Shown here: positions 26,166 to 30,795 of the stretch, piece after piece
How positions within the stretch are numbered: position 1 is the first letter of the stretch
Layout of the letters: each line of letters begins with the position of its first letter
Assembly: GCA_900473685.1 (NCBI GenBank)
Contig: UCNE01000010.1
Coordinates: 124,001-188,000 of the forward strand
Direction: 5' to 3'
DNA length: 64,000 nucleotides
Source: Hyphomicrobiales bacterium
GTDB taxonomy: Bacteria; Pseudomonadota; Alphaproteobacteria; Rhizobiales; Rhizobiaceae
Translations under genes and position numbers: made by a program
Notes under the pieces: generated by a model
Told to the model about the DNA's origin: nothing
What the model saw: the letters and a program-made list of their open reading frames with translations, nothing else
Databases searched by the model: none

Positions 26166-28067
26166 TCAGATGATGACGTGCGAGCCCAGTTCCACCACGC
26201 GGTTGGTCGGCAGGCGGAAATAGTCGGACGGGTCGATGGCGGCGTTGGCAAGGCCGATGAACAGCCTGTCCTGCCAGTGCGGCATGCCCGATTGCGCATC
26301 AGGAACCAGCTTGCGGCGTCCCAGATAGAACGAGGTCGACATGATATCGAATTTCAGGCCGGTCTTGCGGAACAGGCCAAGCGCCTGCGAGACATTCTGG
26401 GTCTCCATGTAGCCGAAGCGCATTTCGAGCAGGCTGAAGCGTTCCGAAAGGCTGCTCGCCGTCACGCGCTGATCCTTCGGCACAACAGGGGTATTCAGCG
26501 TGCGGATCGTCAGGATGAAGTTCTGTGAATGCAGCACATGATTGTGCTTGATATTGTGCAGAAGTGCTGCCGGCGTCGATTCCGGATCACTGGTGAGGAA
26601 GATCGCCGTCCCCGGCACCGAGACCGGCGCATGCTCGCTCTTACGCTCGATCGATTTGACGAAGGACGCAAGCGGGATATCGGTATGCCGCGTCTTGTCG
26701 TGCAGAATCTTGGTGCCGCGCCGCCAAGTCCACATGATGACGATGATCGCAGCCGCAATCAGCACCGGCACGTAACCACCGTCATGGATCTTCAGCATAT
26801 TGGCGCCGAAGAAGATCATTTCGAGGGCGAGAAGCGGCAGAAGCGTGGCGATCGCCAGATAGAGCGGCCACCGCCAGCGCACCCGCACGAACTCATAGGC
26901 AAGGAACGTATCGACCACCATCGCGCCGGTGACGGAGATGCCGTAGGCGGTCGCCAGCGATTCGGACGAGCCGAAGACGAAGACCAGCAGCATGACGCCG
27001 AACATCAAGAGCATATTGACGTTGGGCAGATAGATCTGGCCGGTCTGGGTTTCGGATGTATGGAAGATCGCCATGCGCGGCAGGAAGCCGAGGTGGATCG
27101 CCTGGCGCGTCAGCGAGAATGCGCCGGTGATGACGGCCTGGGCGGCGATAATGGTGGCACAGGTGGCAAGGATGACGACCGGCAACAGCGCCCATTCCGG
27201 GAACATCAGGTAGAACGGGTCGGACATCGCTTCCGGGTTCTTCAGAACGAGTGCACCCTGCCCCAGATAGTTCAGCGCCAGAGCCGGAAAGACCAGACCA
27301 ATCCACGCCCACTGGATGGGCTTGCGGCCGAAATGGCCAAGGTCGGCGTAAAGCGCCTCGGCACCGGTGACCGTCAGGAACACCGCACCGAGGACGACGA
27401 TGCCGACATAGCCGGCATGAATGAGGAAGTGAACGGCATAATAGGGATTGAACGCCGCCAGAATACCGTAGTCATCGGTGATGTGGTTGATGCCGGCAAC
27501 CGACAGAACGATGAACCACAGAGCCATGATCGGGCCGAAGAATTTCGACACCGCTGCCGTACCGCGCGATTGCACGGCGAAAAGCAACAGCAGGATGACC
27601 ACCGAGATCGGCACCACATAGGGCGACAGCGTCGGAGTGACGAGTTTCAGGCCTTCGACAGCCGACAGAACCGACAGGGCCGGCGCAATGATCGCGTCGC
27701 CGATGAACAGGGCAGCACCGGCAATGCCGAGAAAAAACAGGCGGTTTGCGCGCTTGCTCGAATATTTCATCAACAGCGCCAGAAGCGACAGCGTGCCGCC
27801 CTCGCCATTGTTGTCGGCCCGCAACAGGAACAGCACGTATTTCAGCGTGACGATGATCGTCAGCGTCCAGATCATCAGCGAGATCAACCCGACAATTTCC
27901 AGACGCGTCACGCCGTCCGCCGCAACCGGGCGCAGGGCTTCGCGGAATGCGTAAAGCGGGCTGGTGCCGATATCGCCATAGACGACGCCAATCGAGCCAA
28001 GGGACAAAGCCAGAAGCTTCTTGATTTCCTTGTCGCGCGTCTCAGGGGTGGCTGCAGAATGGGACAT
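26166..28067 (-). CDS. kup: Kup-type potassium:proton symporter
   Basis: A 633-residue low-affinity K+ uptake protein of the KUP/HAK/KT family. The N-terminal signature [24 protein letters not shown] is diagnostic; [16 protein letters not shown] and [20 protein letters not shown] follow. There are about 12 membrane helices up to residue 460 and a cytoplasmic C-terminal domain. The ATG at 28067 ([16 protein letters not shown]) matches the family start; the longer frame to 28175 overlaps corA. It lies 17 bases downstream of corA and is probably cotranscribed, which would place K+ and Mg2+ uptake under one leader. Confidence 0.95.
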
Positions 28068-28084: not shown

Positions 28085-29062
28085 CTAGAGCCAGCCTTTC
28101 CAGCGAAAGAAGTAGTAGGGGACGATGGCCGAAATCACCATGCCGATCACGGCCATGGGATAGCCAAATGCCCATTTCAGTTCAGGCATGAAATCGAAGT
28201 TCATGCCGTAAAGCGAAGCGACCAGGGTCGGCGGAAGAAACACGACGGCCGCGATCGAGAAAATCTTGATGATGGCATTCTGCTCGACATTGATCAGCCC
28301 GAGCGAAGCATCCAGAAGAAATGTGATGTTTCCCGAAATGAACGAGGCATGCTCCGACAGCGACTGGATATCGCGCGAAATCGTCCGGCAGAGTTCCTTG
28401 GTCTCGCGGTTTTCCTGCACCGACGGCACGGTATAGAGAAATGTCAGGACGCGGGAGAGCGAGGCAAGGCTGTCACGGGTCTTGGCCACCAGCCGGTGAT
28501 GCGACGCTACATCCATCAGCTTGGCTTCGAGATAATGCGGCGGGCGGCGCTTGCCGACGGGGCGGTCACCAAAAACCTGCAACGACAGGCCGTCGATCCG
28601 GGCAACAGCGATCTCAAGGATTTCCGCGGTGCGATCGACGATCGTTTCAAACAGTCGCGTCACCAGAACCGTTCCCGTGGCACAACCGCCGGGAATGCGG
28701 TGCATCGCTGCCGTGAACAGATCAAAGGCCTTGGGCTCGTCGTAGCGGATCGTGATCAGCATGCCACGAGCCAGAACGAAGGCCACATCCGTCAGTTCCG
28801 GATGACCGCTTTCAGCCTTGCAGACGAGCGAGGCGGTCATGAACACTGCGTCCTTCGCTGTGTAAAGGCGGCTGGACGGTTCGATATCCTTCAGGTCGTC
28901 GCGGGTGGGTACTTCGATACCGAGAAAACCTTCGACCAGCAGATCCTCCGCCTTGTCCGGGCGCAGCATGTCGATCCAGACCACACCGGACGGCAGGGAG
29001 GCAGGCGGCGTCGCCGCGCTGATGACCACGGCTTCACCATTGTCACGATAGGCAGTGATCAT
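28085..29062 (-). CDS. corA: CorA-type magnesium transporter
   Basis: A 325-residue CorA family channel. A large cytoplasmic domain (residues 1-265) is followed by two C-terminal membrane helices, with the selectivity motif YGMNF between LPPTLVASL and [13 protein letters not shown]. The start ATG at 29062 overlaps the stop codon of an upstream 48-codon ORF as ATGA. A promoter at 29377-29406 gives a structured leader of more than 300 bases. Mg2+ is the likely substrate; Co2+ or Ni2+ are possible. It is followed by kup after 17 bases. Confidence 0.95.
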
Positions 29063-29205
29063 GCTGCAGACCCTGGGCGCCCGCCCGCGATGTGGGCACG
29101 CGTGACCACCGTATCGATATGGCGACCGACGATAACAGGAGCCGGACTATGGCGAACCGGAACCAACCGGCCGTATGACATCAAAGCTGCGCGCGGCAGA
29201 TCCAT
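29059..29205 (-). CDS. Upstream ORF (leader peptide candidate) coupled to corA
   Basis: A 48-codon frame from ATG 29205 to TGA, which overlaps the corA ATG (ATGA). It starts MDLPRAALMSYGRL and has five prolines, at positions 4, 16, 21, 23 and 44. A GAGAG lies eight bases before the ATG, a weak ribosome site. No membrane segment or known domain is visible. In Salmonella, corA and mgtA are controlled through proline-containing leader ORFs (corL, mgtL); this frame has the same position but no sequence relation that I can show. It could also be a chance frame. Confidence 0.5.
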   Translation of the reverse strand: MDLPRAALMSYGRLVPVRHSPAPVIVGRHIDTVVTRAHIAGGRPGSAA

Positions 29206-29376
29206 ATGGAAACTCTCGTCGTTAACGACAAACCCTCAAACGGTCATCACGGTCATGCGGAGCCCGACGGAGGGCAGCACCGCTGGTGCATCCTTGCGGA
29301 TGCGGGGAGGCATATGGAGCAAGGCACGTTCAAAATCAATGCAGAAAGTGGCACGGCGCCACATTCTCGCCTAAAG
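29206..29376 (-). promoter_or_regulatory. Structured 5' leader of corA
   Basis: Between the likely transcription start (about 29370) and the leader ORF are several GC-rich hairpins: GCATCC-TTGC-GGATGC (29288-29303), GCACC-GCT-GGTGC (29277-29289, overlapping the former by two bases), GCCC-N6-GGGC (29262-29275), GTGGC/GCCAC near 29350, and the dyad TCGTTAACGA near the ORF start. Overlapping hairpins allow alternative folds. I know no named riboswitch that it matches. Confidence 0.45.
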
Positions 29377-29406
29377 ACTTAACGACGCTCCCTGCCCGAA
29401 TGTCAA
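29377..29406 (-). promoter_or_regulatory. Likely corA-kup promoter
   Basis: On the minus strand TTGACA (29406-29401), an 18-base spacer and TTAAGT (29382-29377). The -35 is perfect and the -10 moderate. It lies about 315 bases before corA, between corA and mrp. Confidence 0.55.
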
Positions 29407-29480
29407 CAGCGGGCGTTTGCCAGTCCTGTTTTCCGTAGGTGCCGCGGCAGATGTTGGAGAACGGGTGATTTCTTCGGCGC

Positions 29481-30668
29481 CTACTCGAACACGATGTTCG
29501 GCATGGTCCGGGCCTTGTCTCCCTGGTGGGCACCCACCTGTTCCCAGACCTTTTTGGCAATCTCGCGATAGACGCGGGTGATTTCGCTGTCGGGCTCCGA
29601 CGCAACGACGGGCGTTCCCGCATCAGACGTCTCGCGGATGCCCATGGTCAACGGCACTTCGCCAAGGAACGGCACGCCGATACGCTCGGCCTCCTTGCGG
29701 GCGCCGCCATGGCCAAAGATATCATAGCGGGCGCCGGTATCAGGCGCGATGAAATAGCTCATGTTCTCGACGATACCGAGCACCGGCACCTCGACCTTGC
29801 GGAACATCGCCAATCCCTTGCGGGCATCGATCAGCGCCAGGTCCTGTGGTGTCGAGACGATGACGGCACCGGCCAGCGGCACCTGTTGCGCCATGGTCAG
29901 CTGCGCGTCGCCCGTACCCGGCGGCATGTCCACCACCAGCACGTCGAGATCGCCCCAGGCGACTTCGCGCAGCATCTGCAGAAGCGCCGACTGGATCATC
30001 GGGCCGCGCCAGATCATCGCCACTTCCTCATCGACAAGGAAACCCATCGACATGACTTTCAGCCCATAATTTTCCATCGGCCGGATCATCCGGCCCTCGA
30101 TCTGCTGCGGCCGCCCGGAAATCTTCATGAGGCGCGGCATCGACGGCCCGTAGATATCGGCATCGAGAATGCCGACGCGCAAGCCATTAGCCTTCAGCGC
30201 CAAGGCAAGGTTGACAGAGGTGGTCGACTTGCCGACACCGCCCTTGCCGGAGGCAACCGCAATGATCGCGCCGACACCCGGGATGCCGGCTTTCGCCGCA
30301 GCCGTCGGCATGCGCGGTGCGGCAGCGGCCGGTGCGTGGCTGTGGCCCGCGTGCGAATGCCCAGCCTGCGAGGGCGCAGAGGCAGGCCGTTGGACCGGGG
30401 CGGAAGACGAAGAGCCCTTCTTATCGGCGGTCAGCGCCACCATGGCGCCCTTGACGCCCGGAATGTCCTTGACCACCCGCTCGGCGGCAGCCCGCAGAGG
30501 ATCAAGTTCGCGGGCGCGCTCCGCCGGCACGGTGATTGAGAAATACACCTTGGAATCGGAAATGAAGACATCCGAGACCAGACCCATATCGACGATATTG
30601 CCGTCCATATCCGGTCCGCGAACGCCCCTGAGCTTGTCGAGAACCTGTTCCTTGGTCACGCCGGTCAT
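29481..30668 (-). CDS. mrp: Mrp/ApbC-type iron-sulfur carrier ATPase
   Basis: A 395-residue protein: an N-terminal DUF59/MIP18 domain (residues about 5-80), a His/Ala/Pro-rich linker (AGHSHAGHSHAPAAAA), and a P-loop ATPase with the deviant Walker A SGKGGVGKST, then GILDADIYGPSMPRL and VVDMPPGTGDAQL. It should load or carry Fe-S clusters. The usual C-terminal CxxC is absent: the region reads MSYFIAPDTGARYDIFGHGG, and I find no cysteine in the whole protein. The ATG at 30668 has AGGAG eight bases upstream, better than the ATG at 30677. It is a single gene. Confidence 0.93.
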   Translation of the reverse strand: MTGVTKEQVLDKLRGVRGPDMDGNIVDMGLVSDVFISDSKVYFSITVPAERARELDPLRAAAERVVKDIPGVKGAMVALTADKKGSSSSAPVQRPASAPSQAGHSHAGHSHAPAAAAPRMPTAAAKAGIPGVGAIIAVASGKGGVGKSTTSVNLALALKANGLRVGILDADIYGPSMPRLMKISGRPQQIEGRMIRPMENYGLKVMSMGFLVDEEVAMIWRGPMIQSALLQMLREVAWGDLDVLVVDMPPGTGDAQLTMAQQVPLAGAVIVSTPQDLALIDARKGLAMFRKVEVPVLGIVENMSYFIAPDTGARYDIFGHGGARKEAERIGVPFLGEVPLTMGIRETSDAGTPVVASEPDSEITRVYREIAKKVWEQVGAHQGDKARTMPNIVFE

Positions 30669-30795
30669 GTCATTCACTCCTGCCGTCAGCGCGGCTGGCT
30701 CGCCCTGCTGTCTCTGTCATACGTTGTATCTTGGTATTAGATAATCGAGCCGGAGTGTTTCGCCAATGTGGCGGCTCAGAAAAACCGGAACAAAA

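Follow-up and report, generated by a model that had tools for sequence, protein, structure and literature searches.

Organization of the corA–kup locus and the comparative sample

The window analyzed here, a 64,000-nucleotide stretch of a Hyphomicrobiales (Rhizobiaceae) genome, carries on its minus strand an mrp gene (30677..29481), a 418-base gap, corA (29062..28085) and kup (28067..26166), in this order.

29481..30677, minus strand: mrp/apbC-like P-loop NTPase gene, NUBPL/ApbC-like by Pfam, a conserved neighbor upstream of corA
28085..29062, minus strand: corA, CorA-like Mg2+ channel of 325 aa (Pfam PF01544, E 1.2e-47)
26166..28067, minus strand: kup, K+ transporter of 633 aa (Pfam PF02705, K_trans)

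The earlier note on this DNA had placed kup in the same unit after corA, and the position of kup was confirmed, with the gene beginning 17 bases downstream of corA and a kup match following corA in 67 of the 70 distinct relatives examined. A second CorA homologue, with 42% identity, is encoded elsewhere in the window's genome (G000:C35:114160-115110). An intrinsic terminator was considered and rejected: the single terminator-like site in 28500..30600 lies inside corA, and the mean for shuffled sequence, 1.8, is higher.

For comparison, 180 loci were collected, in 173 of which the corA start was located at 50% identity or more, yielding 131 distinct upstream regions, with mrp upstream of corA in 128. 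The 32 regions with no recognizable promoter were excluded from every count of leaders and upstream open reading frames (uORFs), for which 99 leaders were used. The named loci among the closest CorA proteins (90-95% identity) include R. herbae, R. giardinii and Pararhizobium polonicum, and we refer to the window's relatives as Pararhizobium, a genus label that is our own reading rather than tool output. Among the 26 genomes of this genus, one (G023) gave no match; 25 genus loci were used.

A putative family-wide promoter upstream of corA

29311..29339, minus strand: putative main promoter TTGATT-N17-CATATG, conserved family-wide
29378..29406, minus strand: TTGACA-N17-GTTAAG, the promoter of the earlier note, conserved at the genus level with variants (identity 0.785)
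29348..29362, minus strand: GTGGC-N5-GCCAC inverted repeat, immediately preceding the conserved promoter and retained in 18 of the 25 aligned genus loci

A promoter with a perfect -35 element had been described 315 bases before corA. The TTGACA hexamer is present at 29406..29401 (minus strand), and the distance holds when measured from the -10-like GTTAAG (29383..29378), but as the main promoter this pair is a poor candidate, because its -10 element is weak and it is conserved, with variants, only in the genus. The likely main promoter lies 67 bases further downstream. Of the 131 distinct Rhizobiaceae regions, 98 contain the pattern TTGATT-N17-NATA upstream of corA, compared to a mononucleotide-shuffle expectation of 0.02, and any other spacer of 10 to 24 bases between TTGATT and NATA occurred in at most 4 of the 131. 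A scan of 28500..30600 for E. coli-type consensus promoters reported none, picking up neither the TTGATT nor the TTGACA site, so that the case for the TTGATT promoter is one of conservation. The rhizobial sigma-70 consensus given in PMC2873474 is CTTGAC-N17-CTATAT; the corresponding segment of the window, ATTGAT-N17-CCATAT, has two hexamers 17 bases apart and agrees with it at 9 of 12 positions by eye. This register would place the transcript start near 29304 and give a leader of approximately 241 nt. TTGATT-N17-CATATG, with a start near 29304, is likely to be the main promoter, and the TTGACA/GTTAAG pair may represent a second promoter or start.

The inverted repeat at 29362..29348 is a possible operator. 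A role as part of a regulon found no support, given that the genome contains 25 matches to the pattern versus 45 for a reversed-pattern control; GTGGC-N5-GCCAC is enriched neither in the genome nor in the 64-kb window. Separately, in ten loci (L052, L101, L102, L106, L110, L114, L116, L119, L126 and L131) the gap between mrp and corA spans 723-872 bases and TTGATT-N17-NATA was not found; these long gaps possibly harbor an inserted gene.

Conservation and RNA structure of the leader

29170..29304, minus strand: conserved leader core, from the predicted start site to codon 12 of the uORF, delimited by pairwise identity
29288..29303, minus strand: 5'-terminal hairpin GCAUCC-GCAA-GGAUGC, 84% of cells paired in 21 sequences
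29216..29231, minus strand: hairpin UUGUCG-UUAA-CGACGA, separated from the uORF start by 10 bases, 84% of cells paired
29059..29205, minus strand: uORF of 48 codons, with its ATG in the conserved block and its TGA overlapping the corA ATG (ATGA)

Across 19 genus loci, the mean pairwise identity is 0.425 beside mrp, 0.88-0.93 in the blocks from 29377 to 29206 and 0.579 in the uORF tail; within the core, it amounts to 0.925 (29304-29206) and 0.888 (29205-29170, uORF codons 1-12). The corresponding values for corA codon positions 1, 2 and 3 in 18 loci are 0.93, 0.965 and 0.68. Judged by these identities, a block of about 200 bases encompassing the promoter, the leader core and the uORF start is under strong nucleotide-level constraint, in contrast to the uORF tail.

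The several overlapping GC hairpins previously described in the leader are reduced to the two small local ones listed above, with the folding energy of the leader being no better than that of its shuffles (z +0.51, +0.57 and -0.24). Covariation across relatives, which the earlier note had suggested as a check, proved weak: for 21 sequences of several genera (21 of the 26 prepared leaders entered the structure counts), RNAalifold returned no consensus pairs. A common RNA structure was also sought in, and rejected for, 17 Sinorhizobium/Ensifer leaders (RNAalifold energy -1.4), 13 leaders of the R. tropici group (-2.6), 15 genus and near loci (-11.7) and a mixed set of 27 (0.0). In the 5' hairpin (29303..29288), two pairs have changed on both sides, compared to zero in the hairpin at 29231..29216. 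A three-part fold consisting of the 5' hairpin, a middle stem and the pre-uORF hairpin pairs 74.9% of cells versus 39-48% for slid versions, over which it is favored because it was derived from the window sequence. The 17 cells of this fold with changes on both sides were matched by 12 of 500 shuffles, its covariation score by 126 and its percentage of pairing by 73; its number of pair types was reached by all 500 and falls below the shuffled mean. The two small hairpins are plausible; support for the middle stem is weak, with 57% of its cells paired.

No covariance model of Rfam 15, including that of the M-box, matched at the gathering score, the best hit remaining below this level with E 0.86, and no other copy of the leader was detected in the genome except for matches with E of 1 or more, making it single-copy. 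Two further reading frames of the region were dismissed as genes. The minus-strand ORF 29364..29236 has its ATG in only 3 of 25 aligned loci, by eye, and the plus-strand ORF 29206..29382 is open in 19 of 25 and of in-frame length in 15 of 25; the openness of the latter possibly stems from nucleotide conservation, because it overlaps the promoter and the conserved core.

An open frame that ends on the corA start codon

The 48-codon ORF that had been reported to stop on the corA start is indeed present at 29205..29059 (minus strand), its TGA overlapping the corA ATG at 29062. It is preceded by a weak ribosome site, and its 48-aa product has no Pfam match. The overlapping TGA itself comes free of cost and is possibly a by-product, because residue 2 of CorA is Ile, which produces NTGAT at the corA start in 130 of the 131 loci; thus, only the open frame and its start need explaining.

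An upstream frame that stops on or beside the downstream start, the arrangement of a coupled leader, is found in the window and in 77 of the 99 leaders, counting ORFs that begin with ATG, comprise at least 6 codons and terminate at the corA start. In 100 dinucleotide-shuffled leader sets, the mean number of qualifying leaders was 32 and the maximum 47 per 99. Taken alone, the ORF of the window is within chance expectation, but the retention of the frame across relatives exceeds it. Among the 77, short unshared frames in the Agrobacterium-type loci L120 (7 codons) and L137 (10 codons) and in L171 (6 codons) may be due to chance.

Counts within clades were restricted to loci bearing the start motif of the respective clade, namely, 23 of the 25 genus loci (L021 and L022 being outside), 17 Sinorhizobium/Ensifer loci and 15 of the 18 R. 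tropici-group loci (L096, L098 and L100 being outside), with L086, L089 and L090 kept separate. In Pararhizobium, the frame is open and overlaps the corA start in all 23 start-bearing loci, with six different start-to-stop lengths, every one a multiple of 3; L021, L022 and their relative L088 also keep this frame open, from a TTG located upstream. In Sinorhizobium/Ensifer, 15 of the 17 copies reach the corA start without a stop. The other two, L171 and L172, carry the same one-base insertion, which introduces a stop at codon 12, and have lost the main frame. The R. tropici group retains the open frame in 15 of 15 loci, and in the three loci with no start motif of this group, other ATG frames end at corA. 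Pooled over the three clades, 53 of 55 copies are open, and apart from the L171/L172 insertion, all lengths are multiples of 3.

Beyond codon 14, the 55 tails contain no stop in the uORF frame, whereas stops occur in 26 of 55 in the +1 frame and in 30 of 55 in the +2 frame. The sequences within a clade are related, and we allowed for this kinship by neutral simulation on the corA trees, using a simple substitution model in which indels are ignored; the probability that all tips remain open was 0.002 for the best-sampled clade and 0.066 and 0.052 for the other two. The preservation of 53 of 55 frames thus points to selection on the overlap and the open frame, with two of the three probabilities borderline. 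In three Ensifer-type loci (L086, L089 and L090), the frame is shifted, yet the ORF still abuts corA, its stop now lying at TGA-ATG; it is the open frame and this displaced stop that argue for selection. Six of the 7 Shinella-type loci have an ATG ORF of 9 codons that overlaps the GTG start of corA, each of these ORFs following AGGAG or GGGAG. Across the lineages, uORF length ranges from 9 to 66 codons. The Sinorhizobium-type uORFs of L051, L173 and L176, for instance, have the first 14 residues in common and comprise 63, 29 and 44 codons, respectively, with the tail changing in frame.

The encoded peptide

Selection on the peptide was considered but not supported. For five groups of 15, 3, 6, 9 and 14 sequences, from which L171 and L172 were dropped owing to their frameshift and in which pairs differing by more than 45% were skipped, pN/pS in the uORF frame was 0.98, 0.94, 0.94, 0.70 and 0.79; all these values, including the two lower ones, are inside the shifted-frame range of 0.63-0.99. 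The layout had been likened to that of proline-containing sensors, a comparison that found no support in the peptide: proline is not enriched, with a frequency in Pararhizobium of 0.075 versus 0.101 and 0.101 in the other frames, and PP occurs in 3 of 55 peptides. The frequency of acidic residues is above that of the other frames in Pararhizobium (0.072 versus 0.006 and 0.040) and in Sinorhizobium/Ensifer (0.078 versus 0.042 and 0.049) and below it in the R. tropici group (0.041 versus 0.068 and 0.064). The genus core retains MDLP at the start of the peptide, with proline 4 kept only there. The first dozen residues are similar within each clade, where the nucleotides are conserved as a whole, and no run of residues common to the peptides of the three clades was found. 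Taken together, the alignments indicate that the frame is retained and that the peptide beyond its start is not.

Lineages without the frame ending at corA

No qualifying ORF was found in 22 of the 99 leaders, suggesting that the proposed coupling device is common but dispensable. By our own lineage grouping, the frame is missing from 4 of 6 Agrobacterium-type and 7 of 8 Neorhizobium-type loci, from all seven of the Leaf371 group, whose CorA proteins are the closest outside the genus (75-78% identity), and from L056, L064, L150 and L172. Ahead of corA, the Agrobacterium-type, Neorhizobium-type and Leaf371 groups carry a direct GGAG or GAGG site. The predicted leaders of Shinella- and Agrobacterium-type loci measure about 64-100 nt; in two of the latter (L061 and L062, 99 nt each), a tiny ATG ATG TGT TAG frame follows a purine-rich stretch and replaces the coupled ORF.

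A model of corA control and its alternatives

We consider it probable, on comparative grounds, that the uORF is translated and hands ribosomes to corA by translational coupling, downstream of the conserved leader core. The corA–kup mRNA would start near 29304 from a housekeeping-type promoter, and the core, with its 5' hairpin and the hairpin adjacent to the ORF, would govern the frequency of initiation on the uORF. Ribosomes translating the uORF would finish at the corA start codon and either re-initiate or keep this codon open, such that corA output would track uORF translation. Selection appears to retain the start site, the open frame and the stop-on-start junction, and not the peptide.

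Several known systems share parts of this layout. The leader ORF of Escherichia coli iraD (PMC5574718) likewise has a stop codon overlapping the start of the regulated gene and leader RNA elements located at the start region of the ORF itself; CsrA binding and coupling were demonstrated there experimentally, whereas the rhizobial case is known from conservation. By analogy to iraD, the stop-on-start overlap predicts a positive link between the uORF and corA (PMC5574718). In stop-start gene pairs coupled by termination-reinitiation (PMC6728339), two co-directed frames likewise overlap at ATGA, although the rhizobial upstream frame encodes an unconserved peptide. A Mg2+-related operon of Mycobacterium tuberculosis with an M-box (PMC12810186) likewise has a uORF downstream of its leader RNA, but the rhizobial leader matches neither the M-box nor any other Rfam family.

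The enterobacterial corL-corA and mgtL-mgtA leaders resemble the rhizobial one in that a uORF stands ahead of a Mg2+ transporter gene (PMC11552253). For E. coli and Salmonella, PMC11552253 describes an inverse relation between the translation of corL and corA that operates through alternative stems and Rho. A similar attenuator, in which Rho would terminate transcription within the leader depending on the Mg2+-sensitive translation of proline or acidic codons, would fit the identity of the gene, the similar leader length, the presence of a uORF, the precedent of enterobacterial corA (PMC11552253), the elevated acidic residues in Pararhizobium and Sinorhizobium/Ensifer, and the MDLP start of the genus core. 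We nevertheless regard such an attenuator as very improbable. Prolines are not enriched, PP is rare (3 of 55), acidic residues are lower in the R. tropici group, and the clades have no run of residues in common; the peptide, unlike those of corL and mgtL, is unconserved beyond its first residues and exhibits no clear purifying selection. Furthermore, corL sits in an upstream stem-loop (PMC11552253), whereas the rhizobial uORF abuts and runs into corA, with no alternative structure detected and a folding z of about 0. Judged by composition, no C-rich, G-poor stretch typical of Rho loading was seen in the leader, C and G being about equal throughout, and the stop-on-start geometry implies positive rather than inverse coupling.

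The core could alternatively be a ligand- or protein-binding RNA, that is, a riboswitch or regulator site, with the uORF gated as its output stage. Its identity within the genus (0.89-0.93), near that of corA codon position 1 (0.93) and well above that of the flanks (0.58 and 0.43), speaks for this possibility, as does the three-part fold (75% paired versus 39-48% when slid), even if that fold is favored by its derivation from the window sequence. Yet RNAalifold found no consensus pairs, 126 of 500 shuffles match or exceed the covariation score, the pair types are below the shuffled mean, an Rfam match is absent, and the Shinella- and Agrobacterium-type leaders (about 64-100 nt) are too short to hold the core; we judge this explanation unlikely. 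The possibility that the ORF is a functionless open frame in a GC-rich leader draws on the fact that frames of such length are common by chance, with 32 of 99 shuffled leaders qualifying on average, that the peptide is not clearly conserved and that the TGA comes free with Ile2. The 77 of 99 observed, the 55 diverged tails devoid of stops, the in-frame length changes and the simulation result for the best-sampled clade (P 0.002) render a chance origin, to our mind, quite unlikely.

As to what the coupled leader might respond to, the earlier suggestion of an independent rhizobial control element of corA stands insofar as an ORF-containing leader is conserved in the genus, single-copy and lacking an Rfam match; its proposed mechanism does not. 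Mg2+ or K+ sensing by the leader is a guess. It is conceivable, if doubtful, that the core is an undescribed rhizobial cation-responsive RNA that switches the start of the coupling ORF, so that the Mg2+ channel and the K+ transporter would be set jointly by way of an ORF that serves solely to deliver ribosomes to corA. In Sinorhizobium fredii, kup was lower at low K+ by qRT-PCR, and KdpE does not bind the kup promoter region (PMC9239096); the kup section of that study does not treat the leader. The main text of a ribosome-profiling study of Sinorhizobium meliloti (PMC10117765) makes no mention of corA. In a full-text search covering few subscription journals, no paper on a rhizobial corA leader or uORF was among the matches listed, those on corA leaders being enterobacterial.

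Implications

The comparative evidence reveals a conserved rhizobial feature with a corrected promoter, most likely a leader ORF coupled to corA. The corrected, predicted start site should be the basis for any reporter work. The combination of a frame that is kept with a peptide and a length that are free to vary provides a simple comparative signature for ORFs missed by screens for peptide conservation. If the coupling is true, uptake of Mg2+, and perhaps of K+, in legume symbionts and their relatives would be set by the hand-over of ribosomes from a leader ORF.
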